Source: Clostridiaceae bacterium | GTDB lineage: Bacteria; Bacillota; Clostridia; Saccharofermentanales; DTU023 | Assembly (NCBI GenBank): GCA_012838795.1 | Contig: DUOO01000027.1 | Coordinates: 1 to 64,000 of the forward strand | Direction: 5' to 3' | DNA length: 64,000 bases | In this document: in pieces, positions 3,722 to 51,797 of the stretch | How the letters are laid out: every line of letters begins with the position of its first letter | How positions within the stretch are numbered: position 1 is the stretch's first letter | Notes under the pieces: model-generated | The model's database searches: none | Told to the model about the DNA's origin: nothing | Seen by the model: the letters and a program-made list of their open reading frames with translations, nothing else | Made by a program: the position numbers and the translations under genes

Positions 3722-4465
3722 TCAGCAGTCAACTCCGCCGTCAACTCTGAGCAATTGACCTGTAATAAATGATGAATCATCGCTGGCAAAGAATAGAGCA
3801 ACTGTACCGATTTCACGACCTACACCCAATTTTTTGAGAGGTGACATTTGTTTCATCGGTTCCATGGCATCCGCACCACCTGCGGAGTCTAACATTTCAG
3901 TTTGAATCGCACCCGGTAAAATGCCGTTAACACGAATTTCAGGTCCCAATTCTCTCGCCATGGCTTTAGTTAAACCGTTAACTGCATGTTTGGAAGTTGC
4001 ATATACACATGGACCCCATTTTGCGGCAGTACCGGCTACTGAACCGGTATTGATAATTGCGCCTGCACCTTTTTCTTTCATGATCGGGGCTACTGCTTTG
4101 GTCATTAAGAAATAAGCATCAACGTTAATTTTCATAACATTTTGATATTCTTCGTAATCCAGATCCAAAATATTTTTGAAACTTACAACACCGGCATTGT
4201 TGAATAAAATATCGATCGTACCGAAGGCTTCCATTGTTTTGTCAACAACATTTTGAATATCTTCCGGTTTGGACATATCGGCTACTACATAAATTGCGTC
4301 GCCGCCCTTTTCTTTAATTGTGTCAACAACTTCTTTAGCACGATTTTCACGTCTGCCTACTACTACAACTTTTGCACCCTCTTCAGCAAAAACATATGCT
4401 GTATCTCTGCCCATACCTGAAGTTGAACCTGTAACGATTGCAACTTTACCATCTAATCTTCCCAT
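3722..4465 (-). CDS. Short-chain dehydrogenase/reductase (classical SDR)
   Basis: A 247-residue classical SDR. The N-terminal nucleotide-binding motif TGSTSGMG is at about residue 12, the NNAG motif near residue 90, the catalytic Ser in the strand before YATSKHA, and the YxxxK catalytic pair near residue 155. The length and the C-terminal VDGG motif fit 3-oxoacyl-ACP reductase / glucose-1-dehydrogenase-like members; the acidic residue that would mark NAD preference after strand 2 is replaced by GRRENR, which suggests NADPH. CGGAGG precedes the ATG. It stands alone, with a terminator downstream and a repeat-rich spacer upstream. Substrate unknown. Confidence 0.85.
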   Translation of the reverse strand: MGRLDGKVAIVTGSTSGMGRDTAYVFAEEGAKVVVVGRRENRAKEVVDTIKEKGGDAIYVVADMSKPEDIQNVVDKTMEAFGTIDILFNNAGVVSFKNILDLDYEEYQNVMKINVDAYFLMTKAVAPIMKEKGAGAIINTGSVAGTAAKWGPCVYATSKHAVNGLTKAMARELGPEIRVNGILPGAIQTEMLDSAGGADAMEPMKQMSPLKKLGVGREIGTVALFFASDDSSFITGQLLRVDGGVDC

Positions 4466-4620: not shown

Positions 4621-4720
4621 TTATAATGTTCACTTATAATGCTCACTTATAATGCTCACTGTAACTAAAAATTATAATGTTGAATGTAACTAAAAATTAT
4701 AATGTTGAATGTAACTAAAA
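4621..4720. repeat. Compound tandem minisatellite in the 4466-4986 spacer
   Basis: Three copies of a 13-base unit, TTATAATGYTCAC, occupy 4621-4659 and are followed at once by 2.4 copies of a 25-base unit (4661-4685, 4686-4710, 4711-4720) that contains the same TATAATGTT core. The rest of the 520-base spacer up to 4775 is AT-rich with no open frame. Confidence 0.85.
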
Positions 4721-4774
4721 TGATTAAACTCAAATTTAATGTTTTTTGATCAACAAATCCGATTCCTAAATCGA

Positions 4775-4937
4775 TCTGGTGACAAAAAAGCCGGCGCTGC
4801 GGATCCGAATTTGATGTGAACCCGCAGACCCGTAAATTTTGCCACCTCCGTGCGATTTCCTAATGTTCTGGTGACAAAAAAGCCGGCGCTGCGGATCCGA
4901 ATTTGATGTGAACCCGCAGACCCGTAAATTTTGCCAC
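4775..4937. repeat. Paired interrupted-hairpin repeat, family B (two identical 71-base copies)
   Basis: Bases 4775-4845 and 4867-4937 are identical by eye, a 92-base period. Each copy can fold: outer arms GTGACAAAA and TTTTGCCAC (8 of 9 pairs), nine unpaired bases on each side, an inner stem CTGCGG/CCGCAG, and a 19-base loop. The 21 bases between the copies are unrelated to the repeat. No coding frame covers it. It is more GC-rich than its surroundings. A dispersed non-autonomous element is inferred. Confidence 0.85.
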
Positions 4938-4986: not shown

Positions 4987-5469
4987 TTATTTGTTTGGAA
5001 TACTTACGGTTACCGGATCAAATTCTTTAATAGTTGTATAATCATCTTCCAAAAGTGAAAATACTATTTCCATAGATTTCACTTTGTCATAGTCTTCTTC
5101 TTCCAATGCAAAACCCAGTGAATAATAGTTTTCTTCAAAACCTTTCGGCTCGAGTTCTGTTGTAAATATCGGGAAAGTATCTTCTTTGCCATTATCAAAC
5201 TTTACATGTTCCATATGAACTCTAAGTTTTTTATCGGTAGAATTTTCAACTTTAAAATGATATTCAGGACCAAATAAGGCTTCCTTTTCATATTTGAGAA
5301 ATGTTATTTTTATTCCATCCTGATCAAGCAATACACCGTCTTCTTTTTTCCCTTCAGCTCCATCTTTTTTTGCATCTTTCTTACCACAACCTACAATGGA
5401 AAGCGTCAACAAAGCAATTAGAAATAAGCTGAATATTTTGATCAGATTCTTATTAATTCTTTTCTTCAT
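4987..5469 (-). CDS. Secreted lipoprotein of unknown function, 160 aa
   Basis: The protein begins with a basic segment (MKKRINKNLIK), a hydrophobic stretch and a lipobox LSIVGC at about residues 23-28, followed by a Lys/Asp-rich linker. AAAGGAG lies six bases before the ATG at 5469, so this start is chosen over an upstream in-frame codon at 5508. The remaining 120 residues look like a beta-rich extracellular domain with a FKVENSTDKKLRVHM-type segment, reminiscent of immunoglobulin-like domains found in Firmicute lipoproteins (DUF4352 and similar), but the assignment is uncertain. It is the last of three lipoprotein genes on the same strand. Confidence 0.75.
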   Translation of the reverse strand: MKKRINKNLIKIFSLFLIALLTLSIVGCGKKDAKKDGAEGKKEDGVLLDQDGIKITFLKYEKEALFGPEYHFKVENSTDKKLRVHMEHVKFDNGKEDTFPIFTTELEPKGFEENYYSLGFALEEEDYDKVKSMEIVFSLLEDDYTTIKEFDPVTVSIPNK

Positions 5470-5608
5470 TTTATTCTCCTTTAAATCTAGATATCCATTC
5501 AAAAACAAAAGTTTTCAAAAAATATATTAATTTCTTCCAATAATATCCATATCCTTTGCAAAACATAGATATGATTGATTGTTTGCAACCTGTTCTTGTT
5601 TTTTATTC

Positions 5609-6388
5609 TTATTTGCCTTGGAAGCTTTCAATGATTTGGATTACATCTGCATCTTCAAGTGAAATGCTTCCACCCGGTTTTTCTGTCCAAACATAAATTT
5701 GATATTGTTTATCACCATCTTCAGCATATAAACATGTAAGAGGAAGATCAGAACTCTTTGCTGTGAATCCGCTAAACGATTTTCCGCCAATTTCAATCGG
5801 ATCAATATCTTCAGCGTCCTCATAAAATTTCTTATCCATTTTGGTCAGAGGAATATCCGAATCACCGTATTCCAGATTTATAACCGGTGCTTTCAATAAT
5901 GCTAAGGGATCGTCCATACTTCCCTTAAACAAACTAACCTTATCCGTAGGTTGTTCGCCGTCCGAAGATTGCATTGGAGATGCAACCCAGCCTTCGGGTA
6001 CAGATACCGAGAATTCTTCATTTTCATAAACATCTCCTGTATTTTGGTCAGTATCGGCTTCTTCGGTTTCATCCGTATCCTCACTGCCTACCTCCTCGGT
6101 CTCATCAGTACCTTCAGCCTCTGTCTCTTCTGCTTTCTCGCTCTCTTCAATTTCTTCGCTCTCTTCTGCTTTCTCGCTCTCTTCTACTTCTTCGCTCTCT
6201 TCAGTCTCGGATTCTTTAGACTCCTCACTTGTTTCAACCGTTTTACTCTCTGTTGCATCAGTTTCTGTCGCTTCGGATTTTTCGTCTTTACCATTTTGAT
6301 CAGCATCATCAGCTTTTTTATTACATGCCATTAATGAAAAAGCCAGAATTAATACTAAAAGAATAATTAACCATTTGTGTTTTTTCAT
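5609..6388 (-). CDS. Lipoprotein with Glu/Ser-rich repetitive linker, 259 aa
   Basis: The ATG at 6388 follows AGGAGG and starts a signal peptide with lipobox FSLMAC near residue 22; the in-frame extension to 6445 has no good ribosome site. Residues 30-125 are a low-complexity linker made of repeated ESEE/SEKAEE units, which at the DNA level is a run of near-identical 12- to 24-base repeats and therefore prone to slippage. The last 125 residues form a folded domain starting near EEFSVSVPEGW, a pattern common in secreted Firmicute proteins (PsbP/DUF-like 'VPEGW' domains). The linker would lift this domain off the membrane. No function is known. Confidence 0.75.
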   Translation of the reverse strand: MKKHKWLIILLVLILAFSLMACNKKADDADQNGKDEKSEATETDATESKTVETSEESKESETEESEEVEESEKAEESEEIEESEKAEETEAEGTDETEEVGSEDTDETEEADTDQNTGDVYENEEFSVSVPEGWVASPMQSSDGEQPTDKVSLFKGSMDDPLALLKAPVINLEYGDSDIPLTKMDKKFYEDAEDIDPIEIGGKSFSGFTAKSSDLPLTCLYAEDGDKQYQIYVWTEKPGGSISLEDADVIQIIESFQGK

Positions 6389-6474
6389 TTTCCTTCCTCC
6401 TATACTCTGAATAAACTTCATTATGCACTTTTGTAATCTGAACATTATTAAGATAAAATCAAGACATTATTCGA

Positions 6475-7785
6475 TTACGGCAAGGAATTCAGAATCGGTT
6501 GTTCTACATCTTGTCGCTCAATTCCTCCTATGACAAAACCGAAAGGATCATTATCTCTATACTCTTGTCTTTGTAATACCATAATTAAATAGCTGATTTT
6601 CAAACCTGTATCTTCTGCCTCCAGCAAAATTTCAACTTCCCATTTTCCCGGTGAAACTTCTTCACTTGATATAATGTCGGATAAATATTTGGAATATGCA
6701 GGATAAGCGATTCTGGCAATTTCATATTTTTCATGTCGATCGGGTGTATAGTTAATTAAATAACCGTCATACTCCGGTATTTCCCGATTTAAATGTCCAT
6801 AAAGACTCAGAACATATTCATCAAACAACCATTGCTCCAGCGGTAAGGTCGGTGTGTCCGGATCCGGCTCATAGGGAAACGGCTGCTGCAGATTAACTAA
6901 TTCACATAAGCAGGACCAATAGTAATGATCTGTTTCGTAAAAATAACCGAACTTGGTATCCGCACCGAATAACAAGTATGCTTCATCATATTCAAATTGA
7001 GTATAAGCATACATTTTACAAAAATCCATAAAAGGCGAATCTATCGTTAATTCTTCAGGCTGCCATTCTTCTTTCGGAATTACAATTTCAACTTCTTCTT
7101 CTCTGCCGTTATAGGCCAAAAACCACTCTGAACGGTAATTACCTTGGGTACAAACCAAGCGGAAATTCGGGATACTTTCTGTCAAAAATCCGTAAAATTC
7201 AAAGAGATCACCTTGGTTGCCGGTTATCTGAAACACTTCCAGCGTCGGATGAAAATACCATAAACCGAAAAGATAATCGCCGTATTCCAAAGTAACAGTA
7301 ACATCGTCGGACTCAATTCTGAAACGAATCGGCCCTGCAAGTTCCGGTCCCATTGTGTTATCTAAAAAGGTAATCGCCTGATCAGCAGTATCCAAGGCTT
7401 TGAATTCTGCCGATTGTTTACTCGGAAATATTGTTATCAGATTAGGATTATCTTCAACAGCTGATTTATCACCCGGTTCAGATTTATTTGGATTTTGCTC
7501 AGTAACTTCTTCCGAGGTTTTTTCTGAAGTTTCAGGATTTTCAGATTCGGTTTCAGATTTAGTTGTTGTTTGAGTCTCAGGATAGCTTTCGGATGGAAGT
7601 TCAGGATCAGAATCAGATTCAGTTGTAGTCTGATCATTTGTTTCAGAAGTCGAAACTGTCTTTTGATCTGACTTCTCTCCGTCTTTTTTTTGTTCACCGG
7701 AACAAGAGCTCAAAGATGATATTATCAGGATTAACACCAGACATAAAACGAATACTGTCGTCACAAAATGTAATGCTTTCTTCAT
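6475..7785 (-). CDS. Lipoprotein of unknown function, 436 aa
   Basis: The start at 7785 (MKKALHFV) follows TGAGGT; the signal peptide ends in the lipobox SLSSC near residue 29. A Ser/Thr/Glu-rich linker of about 90 residues follows, and then a 310-residue domain rich in aromatic residues (for example DHYYWSCLCELV) with no family recognised. It is the first gene of a run of three lipoproteins with similar organisation (signal, acidic or Ser-rich linker, C-terminal domain). The gaps between them are 86 and 139 bases, so one transcript is possible but not shown. Confidence 0.7.
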   Translation of the reverse strand: MKKALHFVTTVFVLCLVLILIISSLSSCSGEQKKDGEKSDQKTVSTSETNDQTTTESDSDPELPSESYPETQTTTKSETESENPETSEKTSEEVTEQNPNKSEPGDKSAVEDNPNLITIFPSKQSAEFKALDTADQAITFLDNTMGPELAGPIRFRIESDDVTVTLEYGDYLFGLWYFHPTLEVFQITGNQGDLFEFYGFLTESIPNFRLVCTQGNYRSEWFLAYNGREEEVEIVIPKEEWQPEELTIDSPFMDFCKMYAYTQFEYDEAYLLFGADTKFGYFYETDHYYWSCLCELVNLQQPFPYEPDPDTPTLPLEQWLFDEYVLSLYGHLNREIPEYDGYLINYTPDRHEKYEIARIAYPAYSKYLSDIISSEEVSPGKWEVEILLEAEDTGLKISYLIMVLQRQEYRDNDPFGFVIGGIERQDVEQPILNSLP

Positions 7786-7951
7786 ACATACCTCAAAAAC
7801 AATAAATAACAAAAAATATTAAATGACAATATTATTTGATATATATTTTTTGTACTTATATTTTAGTATATATTCAAAATTATTACATCACTATCCCTTT
7901 TTCTTATTATTAATAAAGCATTAAATTTTAGAAAAATTGGTGTCTATTGTA

Positions 7952-22774: not shown

Positions 22775-22922
22775 GTGAAAACTGCTCACTTTTTCGAGGT
22801 CTGCAAACAGAATCTTACACAGCTCAATATTTTGAGCAAAAACGGGTGCCTCAACCGTGAAAACTGCTCACTTTTTCGAGGTCTGCAAACAGAATCTTGC
22901 ACAGCTCAAAATATTGAGCAAA
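22775..22922 (+). repeat. Paired interrupted-hairpin repeat, family A (copy pair 1)
   Basis: Two tandem copies start at 22775 and 22857, an 82-base period. Each has outer arms CTGCTCA and TGAGCA, and a degenerate inner stem around GTCTGCA / TGCACAGC. The spacer in the first copy ends in CGGGTGCCTCAACC. The reverse complement of the locus at 51.7 kb is the same family, with the same 82-base period and nearly the same spacer. Confidence 0.85.
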
Positions 22923-24188: not shown

Positions 24189-24244
24189 GTGACAACATTG
24201 CAGCTTTTGTCAAAATCCCATGGCATAAGTTACTGAGTTGTCAC
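24189..24244 (-). terminator. Terminator-like inverted repeat between convergent genes
   Basis: GTGACAAC (24189-24196) and GTTGTCAC (24237-24244) pair across a 40-base loop; read on the minus strand the second arm is followed by six T residues, so it would serve the cyclophilin gene. Confidence 0.55.
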
Positions 24245-51657: not shown

Positions 51658-51797
51658 CTGCTCAGAATTCTGTGCTGTGCAGATTTTCCTTTGCACAGCT
51701 GCGAAAAGTGAGCAGATCTCGAGGTTGAGGCGCCCGTTTCTGCTCAGAATTTTGAGCTGTGCAGATTTTCCTTTGCACAGCTGCGAAAAGTGAGCAG
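51658..51797 (-). repeat. Paired interrupted-hairpin repeat, family A (copy pair 2, opposite orientation)
   Basis: Two 58-base copies, 51658-51715 and 51740-51797, period 82. Each reads CTGCTCA, 8 bases, GCTGTGCA, a 10-base loop, TGCACAGC, 8 bases, TGAGCAG, so outer 7-pair and inner 8- to 9-pair stems flank a symmetric 8/8 internal loop. On the minus strand the spacer contains CGGGCGCCTCAACC, nearly the same as in the 22.8-kb pair. A short open frame over it (minus strand) is an accident of the repeat. Confidence 0.88.

Follow-up and report, generated by a model that had tools for sequence, protein, structure and literature searches.

Palindromic repeats with helix-step spacing between the genes of one clostridial genus and their likeness to REPINs and BIMEs

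Integron attC sites are imperfect palindromes in which an outer stem, a mismatched middle and an inner stem follow one another, and VNTRs of the MIRU type are dispersed intergenic tandem arrays with units of 50-100 bp and copy-number alleles. The usual view of palindromic repeats in bacteria is that they are hairpins which a single enzyme family (RAYT) mobilises. According to the available portion of the paper describing them (PMC3116915), the REPINs of Pseudomonas and other bacteria are doublets of REP sequences which form hairpins, with preferred spacings of 71 and 110 bp. BIMEs and REPs are bound by proteins, as stated in the available parts of two further sources (PMC2817692, PMC3733652), and Firmicutes is not among the host phyla named for GTAG and CGTC repeats, a word which is absent from the available text (PMC3733652).

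The array described here lies in a stretch of 64,000 nucleotides from a Clostridiaceae bacterium (contig DUOO01000027.1), hereafter called the window, in which an initial annotation made from the sequence alone had reported two identical copies of 71 nt. The pair at 4775-4845 and 4867-4937 indeed has 100% identity and a start-to-start offset of 92 bp, and the proper repeat unit of the array is 67 nt (4779-4845 and 4871-4937) followed by a spacer of 25 bp. The array and its flanking genes are composed as follows:

3722-4465, minus strand: SDR-type gene, name read from the translation
4755-4778, no strand: degenerate spacer-like stretch left of unit 1, GATTCCTAAATCGATCTG compared with GATTTCCTAATGTTCTG in the spacer, read from the sequence
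4779-4845, plus strand: family B unit 1, a 67-bp imperfect palindrome
4779-4804 (GTGACAAAAAAGCCGGCGCTGCGGAT) and 4820-4845 (inverted): half-sites of unit 1
4846-4870, no strand: 25-bp spacer joining the two B units, one of the lattice lengths
4871-4937, plus strand: family B unit 2, same sequence as unit 1
4987-5508, minus strand: small lipoprotein gene, name read from the translation

The array is intergenic, as had been proposed, with the SDR-type gene on one side and the small lipoprotein gene, the stop codon of which is 49 bp from the array, on the other. No ORF of 60 or more amino acids in the ORF list of the 64,000-nt window covers the copies and no Rfam covariance model matched them above threshold. 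Imperfect tandem repeats of 13 and 25 bp (TTATAATGTTGAATGTAACTAAAAA) are present at 4621-4720, upstream of the SDR gene and adjoining the B array. The block of lipoprotein-like genes at 4987-7812 is absent at the matching place in the sibling genome G001, where a diacylglycerol-kinase-like gene comes straight after the SDR gene, and the window locus therefore gives no empty-site comparison there.

Family B is not limited to the window. A profile built from 47 units and searched on sequence only located about 85 units, spread over about 33 places, in the source genome (assembly G000, 63 contigs, 96% complete), after 141 rows had been reduced by merging the matches of the palindrome on both strands, so that the possibility of a family found nowhere else, allowed for at the outset, no longer holds. 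Searching the same assembly with the B sequence at the DNA level gave 37 matches, and with at most 3 mismatches allowed the B half-site pattern was matched 176 times, compared with 2 times for the reversed pattern. Beyond the source genome, the search for B covered the genus genome-wide with the profile and 59 relatives at the level of DNA similarity; in six congeneric species the profile identified one site, in G001 only, which is orthologous to site L026 of the source genome. The B 67-mers are 88% alike within an array and 68% alike between arrays, in keeping with the recent duplication or gene conversion by which the identity of the two window copies had been explained. No member of the class was found in phages, plasmids or viral contigs. 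A 24-nt half-site pattern searched across 84,980 species gave 7 single matches in unrelated genomes, all lacking the partner half, and these were judged to be due to chance. The genomes are draft assemblies with many contigs, and 39% of the source genome was read without bias.

Families A, B and C are present in the source genome and a fourth, D, in its siblings, which supports the initial suggestion of a class with several families, whereas its definition by hairpin shape was not borne out. Families C and D turned up in G001 in a scan for imperfect palindromes which used no sequence model. The members of families A and C in the window are:

22783-22838, plus strand: family A unit 1, 56 bp, TGCTCA...TGAGCA
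22865-22920, plus strand: family A unit 2, spacer 26
24189-24244, minus strand: family C unit, 56 bp, GTGACAAC...GTTGTCAC, single
51659-51714, minus strand: second A array, unit 1
51741-51796, minus strand: second A array, unit 2, spacer 26

Each unit is built from a pair of bipartite half-sites, inverted with respect to each other and about 26 bp long, which contain a variable outer word and a more conserved inner word, GCT-N-TGC-G. The inner words are similar (B CGGCTCTGCGG, A GAGCTGTGCAG, C CAGCTTATGCC, D AAGCTTATGCAG) and the outer words unlike (B GTGYCA, A TGCTCA, C GTGACAAC, D TGCACAC). With the outer words as end points, the units are 56 bp long in A, C, D and a short form of B, and 67 bp in the long form of B; a chimera in which a B half is fused to an A half (L017:1783-1838) is also exactly 56 bp. 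That B does not match A, as first noted, is correct for nucleotide searches but not for the structure of the elements, since the two families have the frame and the inner motif in common.

Among 38 genomes of the bacterial family, the A profile found members in G000, G005, G001 and G004, and the D profile gave at least 149 rows in G005, 147 in G001, 25 in G004, 1 in G003 and none in G000. Neither profile found a member in 31 genomes of six other genera, and A, B and D had no match in G002 and G006, two of the seven congeners. The scope for family C was the sampled contigs only. The class is confined to one bacterial genus. A tandem repeat near a gene end in G015, of another genus (L199:8590-8720, CTAGTCAACGAAAGCTTTTGCCAGTCACAG), has one similar word and a different frame, and was rejected as a member.

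The constant of the class is element length together with helix-step spacing, not a conserved hairpin. Spacers were 15, 25/26 or 35/36 bp long in 79 of 80 cases. The D units of G001 and G005, most of which are outside this first set of spacers, were 56 bp in 117 of 118 cases and were separated by 73 spacers of 35-37 bp and one of 15, with one gap of 107 bp corresponding to 15+56+36. All five length classes (15, 25/26, 35/36, 56 and 67 bp) fit 15.0 + 10.34k bp, and a free search for the period gave 10.3 bp as the best value, random sets of five lengths fitting equally well in about 0.3% of trials (~0.003), a fit which leans on few distinct length classes. Separate families share particular steps: that of 15 bp is found in A, B and D, that of 26 bp in A, B and C, and that of 36 bp in B and D. 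The sequences of the 25-bp spacers of 20 B arrays were on average 44% alike, and in 14 of these arrays spacer likeness was 45%, compared with 30% after shuffling. A spacer which is held in length and is nearly free in sequence argues that the DNA is bound in double-stranded form, from a single face of the helix. Phased A-tract curvature was considered as a common property and rejected, being strong in several B arrays and missing from both the window array and family A; the high curvature values are inflated, the shuffles ignoring tandem structure.

The order of segments in the predicted fold of the window copies is that given initially, with an outer stem of 9 bp, a 4x4 loop, 3 bp, a 2x2 loop and an inner stem (equal to the 9/9 internal loop first described). 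The fold of a copy was strong on the minus strand (-32.5 kcal/mol, z -5.3) and unremarkable on the plus strand (-18.4 kcal/mol, z -1.35). A functional fold would be expected to leave co-variation at its paired positions. In the B alignment the share of paired cells was 80.4%, compared with 81.7% in shuffled columns (499 of 500 shuffles reached or exceeded the observed share), RNAalifold gave no consensus hairpin for B, and with one unit taken per site neither B nor D had pairing in excess of shuffles. The arms of family A were more complementary than shuffled arms (0.685 compared with 0.646, p about 0.001), and the folded form may matter in A. The mismatched stretch is placed differently from family to family. 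Since co-variation is lacking in B and D and the mismatches shift, the palindrome was read as two putative inverted binding sites, the fold possibly having an additional role in A. An RNA element was rejected, Rfam being empty, a consensus fold missing and B being without compensation.

The elements sit just 3' of genes. From simple ORF calls, 36 intergenic sites in three species comprised 9 convergent and 27 co-directional gaps and no divergent one, even though 18% of the intergenic length belongs to divergent gaps. The element was nearer to the upstream stop codon at 22 of the 27 co-directional sites, the median distances being 58 and 255 bp.

The same sites are used by different families in different species. 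Of 46 sibling sites tested, 25 could be placed on sequence of the source genome. Six of the nine distinct source loci matching sibling sites were occupied, compared with 7% of gaps at least 100 bp long (p about 7e-6); this count refers to contigs fetched regardless of repeats, the other source sequence having been chosen for its B or A units, and one of the six occupied loci carries half a C element only. At L014, L023, L024, L026, L050 and L055 siblings carry D and the source genome B; at L024, D is present in both G001 and G005. The site at window position 22783 has two A units here and four D units plus half an A element in G005 (L255), and G005 has a C unit at the same site as that at 24189-24244 (L255:240-297). 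At L016, G001 and G004 carry C then D and the source genome half a C element then B, and at L028 an intact C in G001 corresponds to half a C element followed by three B units. A half-site of another family was found within 120 bp at 7 independent sites of the source genome, where about 0.1 would be expected. The retained half mostly terminates close to the middle of the old palindrome, and its distance to the new array varies. This was taken as a lead to a mechanism, either breakage or insertion around the palindrome's midpoint, rather than as proof of one. Two contig ends of the source assembly (C48:18886-18941 and C58:752-1083; L054, L055) hold allelic versions of a single site, one having 1 B unit and the other 4, with flanks 98% identical, and consequently either the assembly mixes strains or array length varies. 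Neither a target-site duplication nor a clean empty site was seen at orthologous sites, which align too poorly at the junctions.

No candidate for a linked transposase, recombinase or binding protein emerged from searches of the Y1, tyrosine and serine families. The REP-associated tyrosine transposase Y1 (PF01797) was found in none of the seven congeneric genomes, the same search being positive in 5 of 14 control genomes. The source assembly has a single tyrosine recombinase of about 348 amino acids (C49:58997-59491, L216) with close matches in all congeners; it was taken as Xer, which suggests a single-recombinase Xer system, and no integron integrase was recognised in the source genome. One serine resolvase gene (L223; C5:16614-17412 of G000) has no visible link to the repeats. 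A 69-bp imperfect palindrome lies about 120 bp upstream of it and is possibly its own recombination site. Solo half-sites paired around an ORF, as the ends of an autonomous element would be, did not occur in about 1.4 Mb of sampled DNA of the genus. The contigs read contained no dispersed multi-copy IS, just local gene duplications and the arrays themselves.

A large class without RAYT, with helix-step spacing kept despite sequence drift, points to binding of double-stranded DNA by a multimer. The interpretation preferred here, which is considered about evenly balanced between right and wrong, is that of a genus-restricted class of palindromic repeats similar to REPINs and BIMEs, in which half-sites are bound as double strands by a multimer and arrays recombine. 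A multimeric sequence-specific protein would bind the half-sites, all on one face of the helix, arrays would grow and shrink through recombination between units, and new families would enter the sites of older ones by recombination or by insertion near the old palindrome. The protein might be an enzyme which mobilises the repeats or one of the host's architectural proteins; the first choice is that a non-autonomous repeat is being mobilised. The main competitor, possible though rather unlikely, is that the arrays serve the host from fixed chromosomal positions 3' of genes, where a nucleoid, insulator or roadblock protein would use them as its platform, the recognition word changing between species along with the protein while the positions stay. 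It would account for the filling of the same sites with another family in siblings (D instead of B at six loci, D instead of A at 22783), for strict spacing despite diverged spacer sequence and for divergent gaps being empty of elements. However, array length differs between alleles, the system looks dispensable in that G002 and G006 have no match to A, B or D, and the relics of older families beside newer ones would also be given by invasion of old elements. A related proposal, put forward only tentatively and improbable as it stands, has chromosome-wide, helically phased arrays at fixed addresses, the word of which is swapped per species by conversion (D to B, D to A, C plus D to C plus B) in co-evolution with a putative multimeric protein and with no known transposase; if true, this would be a bacterial 'dialect' system of DNA sites.

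Strict single-strand hairpins, with the fold recognised by a Y1 transposase as for REPs and REPINs or by an integrase as for attC, are unlikely to explain the class: a window copy does fold strongly on one strand and the arms of A are complementary beyond shuffling, but Y1 is absent from all seven congeneric genomes, the sole tyrosine recombinase of the source genome is Xer-like, no consensus fold exists, mismatch positions vary by family, and separate hairpins would need no helical spacing. Plain VNTR turnover by slippage and unequal crossing-over without selection, already disfavoured, is very unlikely. The greater likeness of units within arrays than between them and the alleles of 1 and 4 units would follow from it, whereas neutral indels would scatter the spacer lengths, 79 of 80 of which take three values with B spacers 44% alike, and a 56-bp frame is common to four families. 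Also very unlikely are bidirectional intrinsic terminators or RNA elements of 3'-UTRs, with which the location after stop codons and the GC stem of B adjoining a T run agree; separate terminator-like hairpins were read from the sequence beside several arrays (L010, L011, L055), the combination of GC stem and T run is missing from A, C and D, no RNA family matched and the helical spacing would be left unexplained. Sibling species are before-and-after pairs for repeat turnover, and with four families, one frame and the same sites in different species the turnover of interspersed repeats becomes directly testable.

Compared with the known systems, the class is like attC in its imperfect palindrome of outer stem, mismatched middle and inner stem, but no integrase was recognised, no gene cassettes lie between units and the spacers are only 15-36 bp. 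Dispersed intergenic tandem arrays with copy-number alleles are a likeness to MIRU-type VNTRs, from which palindromic units, several families and helix-step lengths set it apart. A CRISPR array, in which unique spacers are expected, was rejected, the spacers here recurring within an array. As in the available text on REPINs, conserved words form inverted doublets with preferred spacing, intergenic and in many copies, with several families per genome (PMC3116915), and tandem arrays and clusters arise there through insertion into or beside existing elements (PMC3116915). The same portion of text has REPINs accompanied by a RAYT (Y1) gene (PMC3116915), of which the seven congeneric genomes of this class have none, and has their hairpins carrying compensatory changes (PMC3116915), which B and D lack and A has weakly; it makes no mention of helical quantisation, a feature of this class (PMC3116915). 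No description of helix-step spacing in such repeats was found in a small literature search. The half-site alignments contain no GTAG or CGTC tag, and none of 7 consensus half-sites folds clearly better than shuffles into a small stem-loop. The elements are high-copy extragenic inverted doublets with preferred spacing, by which REPINs are recognised; with the RAYT gene and the tag both missing, they were classed as interspersed palindromic repeats and not as REPINs. Regularly spaced palindromic words of alternating orientation in extragenic DNA are also what the available parts of the sources describe for BIMEs and REPs (PMC2817692, PMC3733652). The nearest kind is the REPIN/BIME group, with which the class shares its architecture, its division into families, its tandem arrays and the nesting of its elements.
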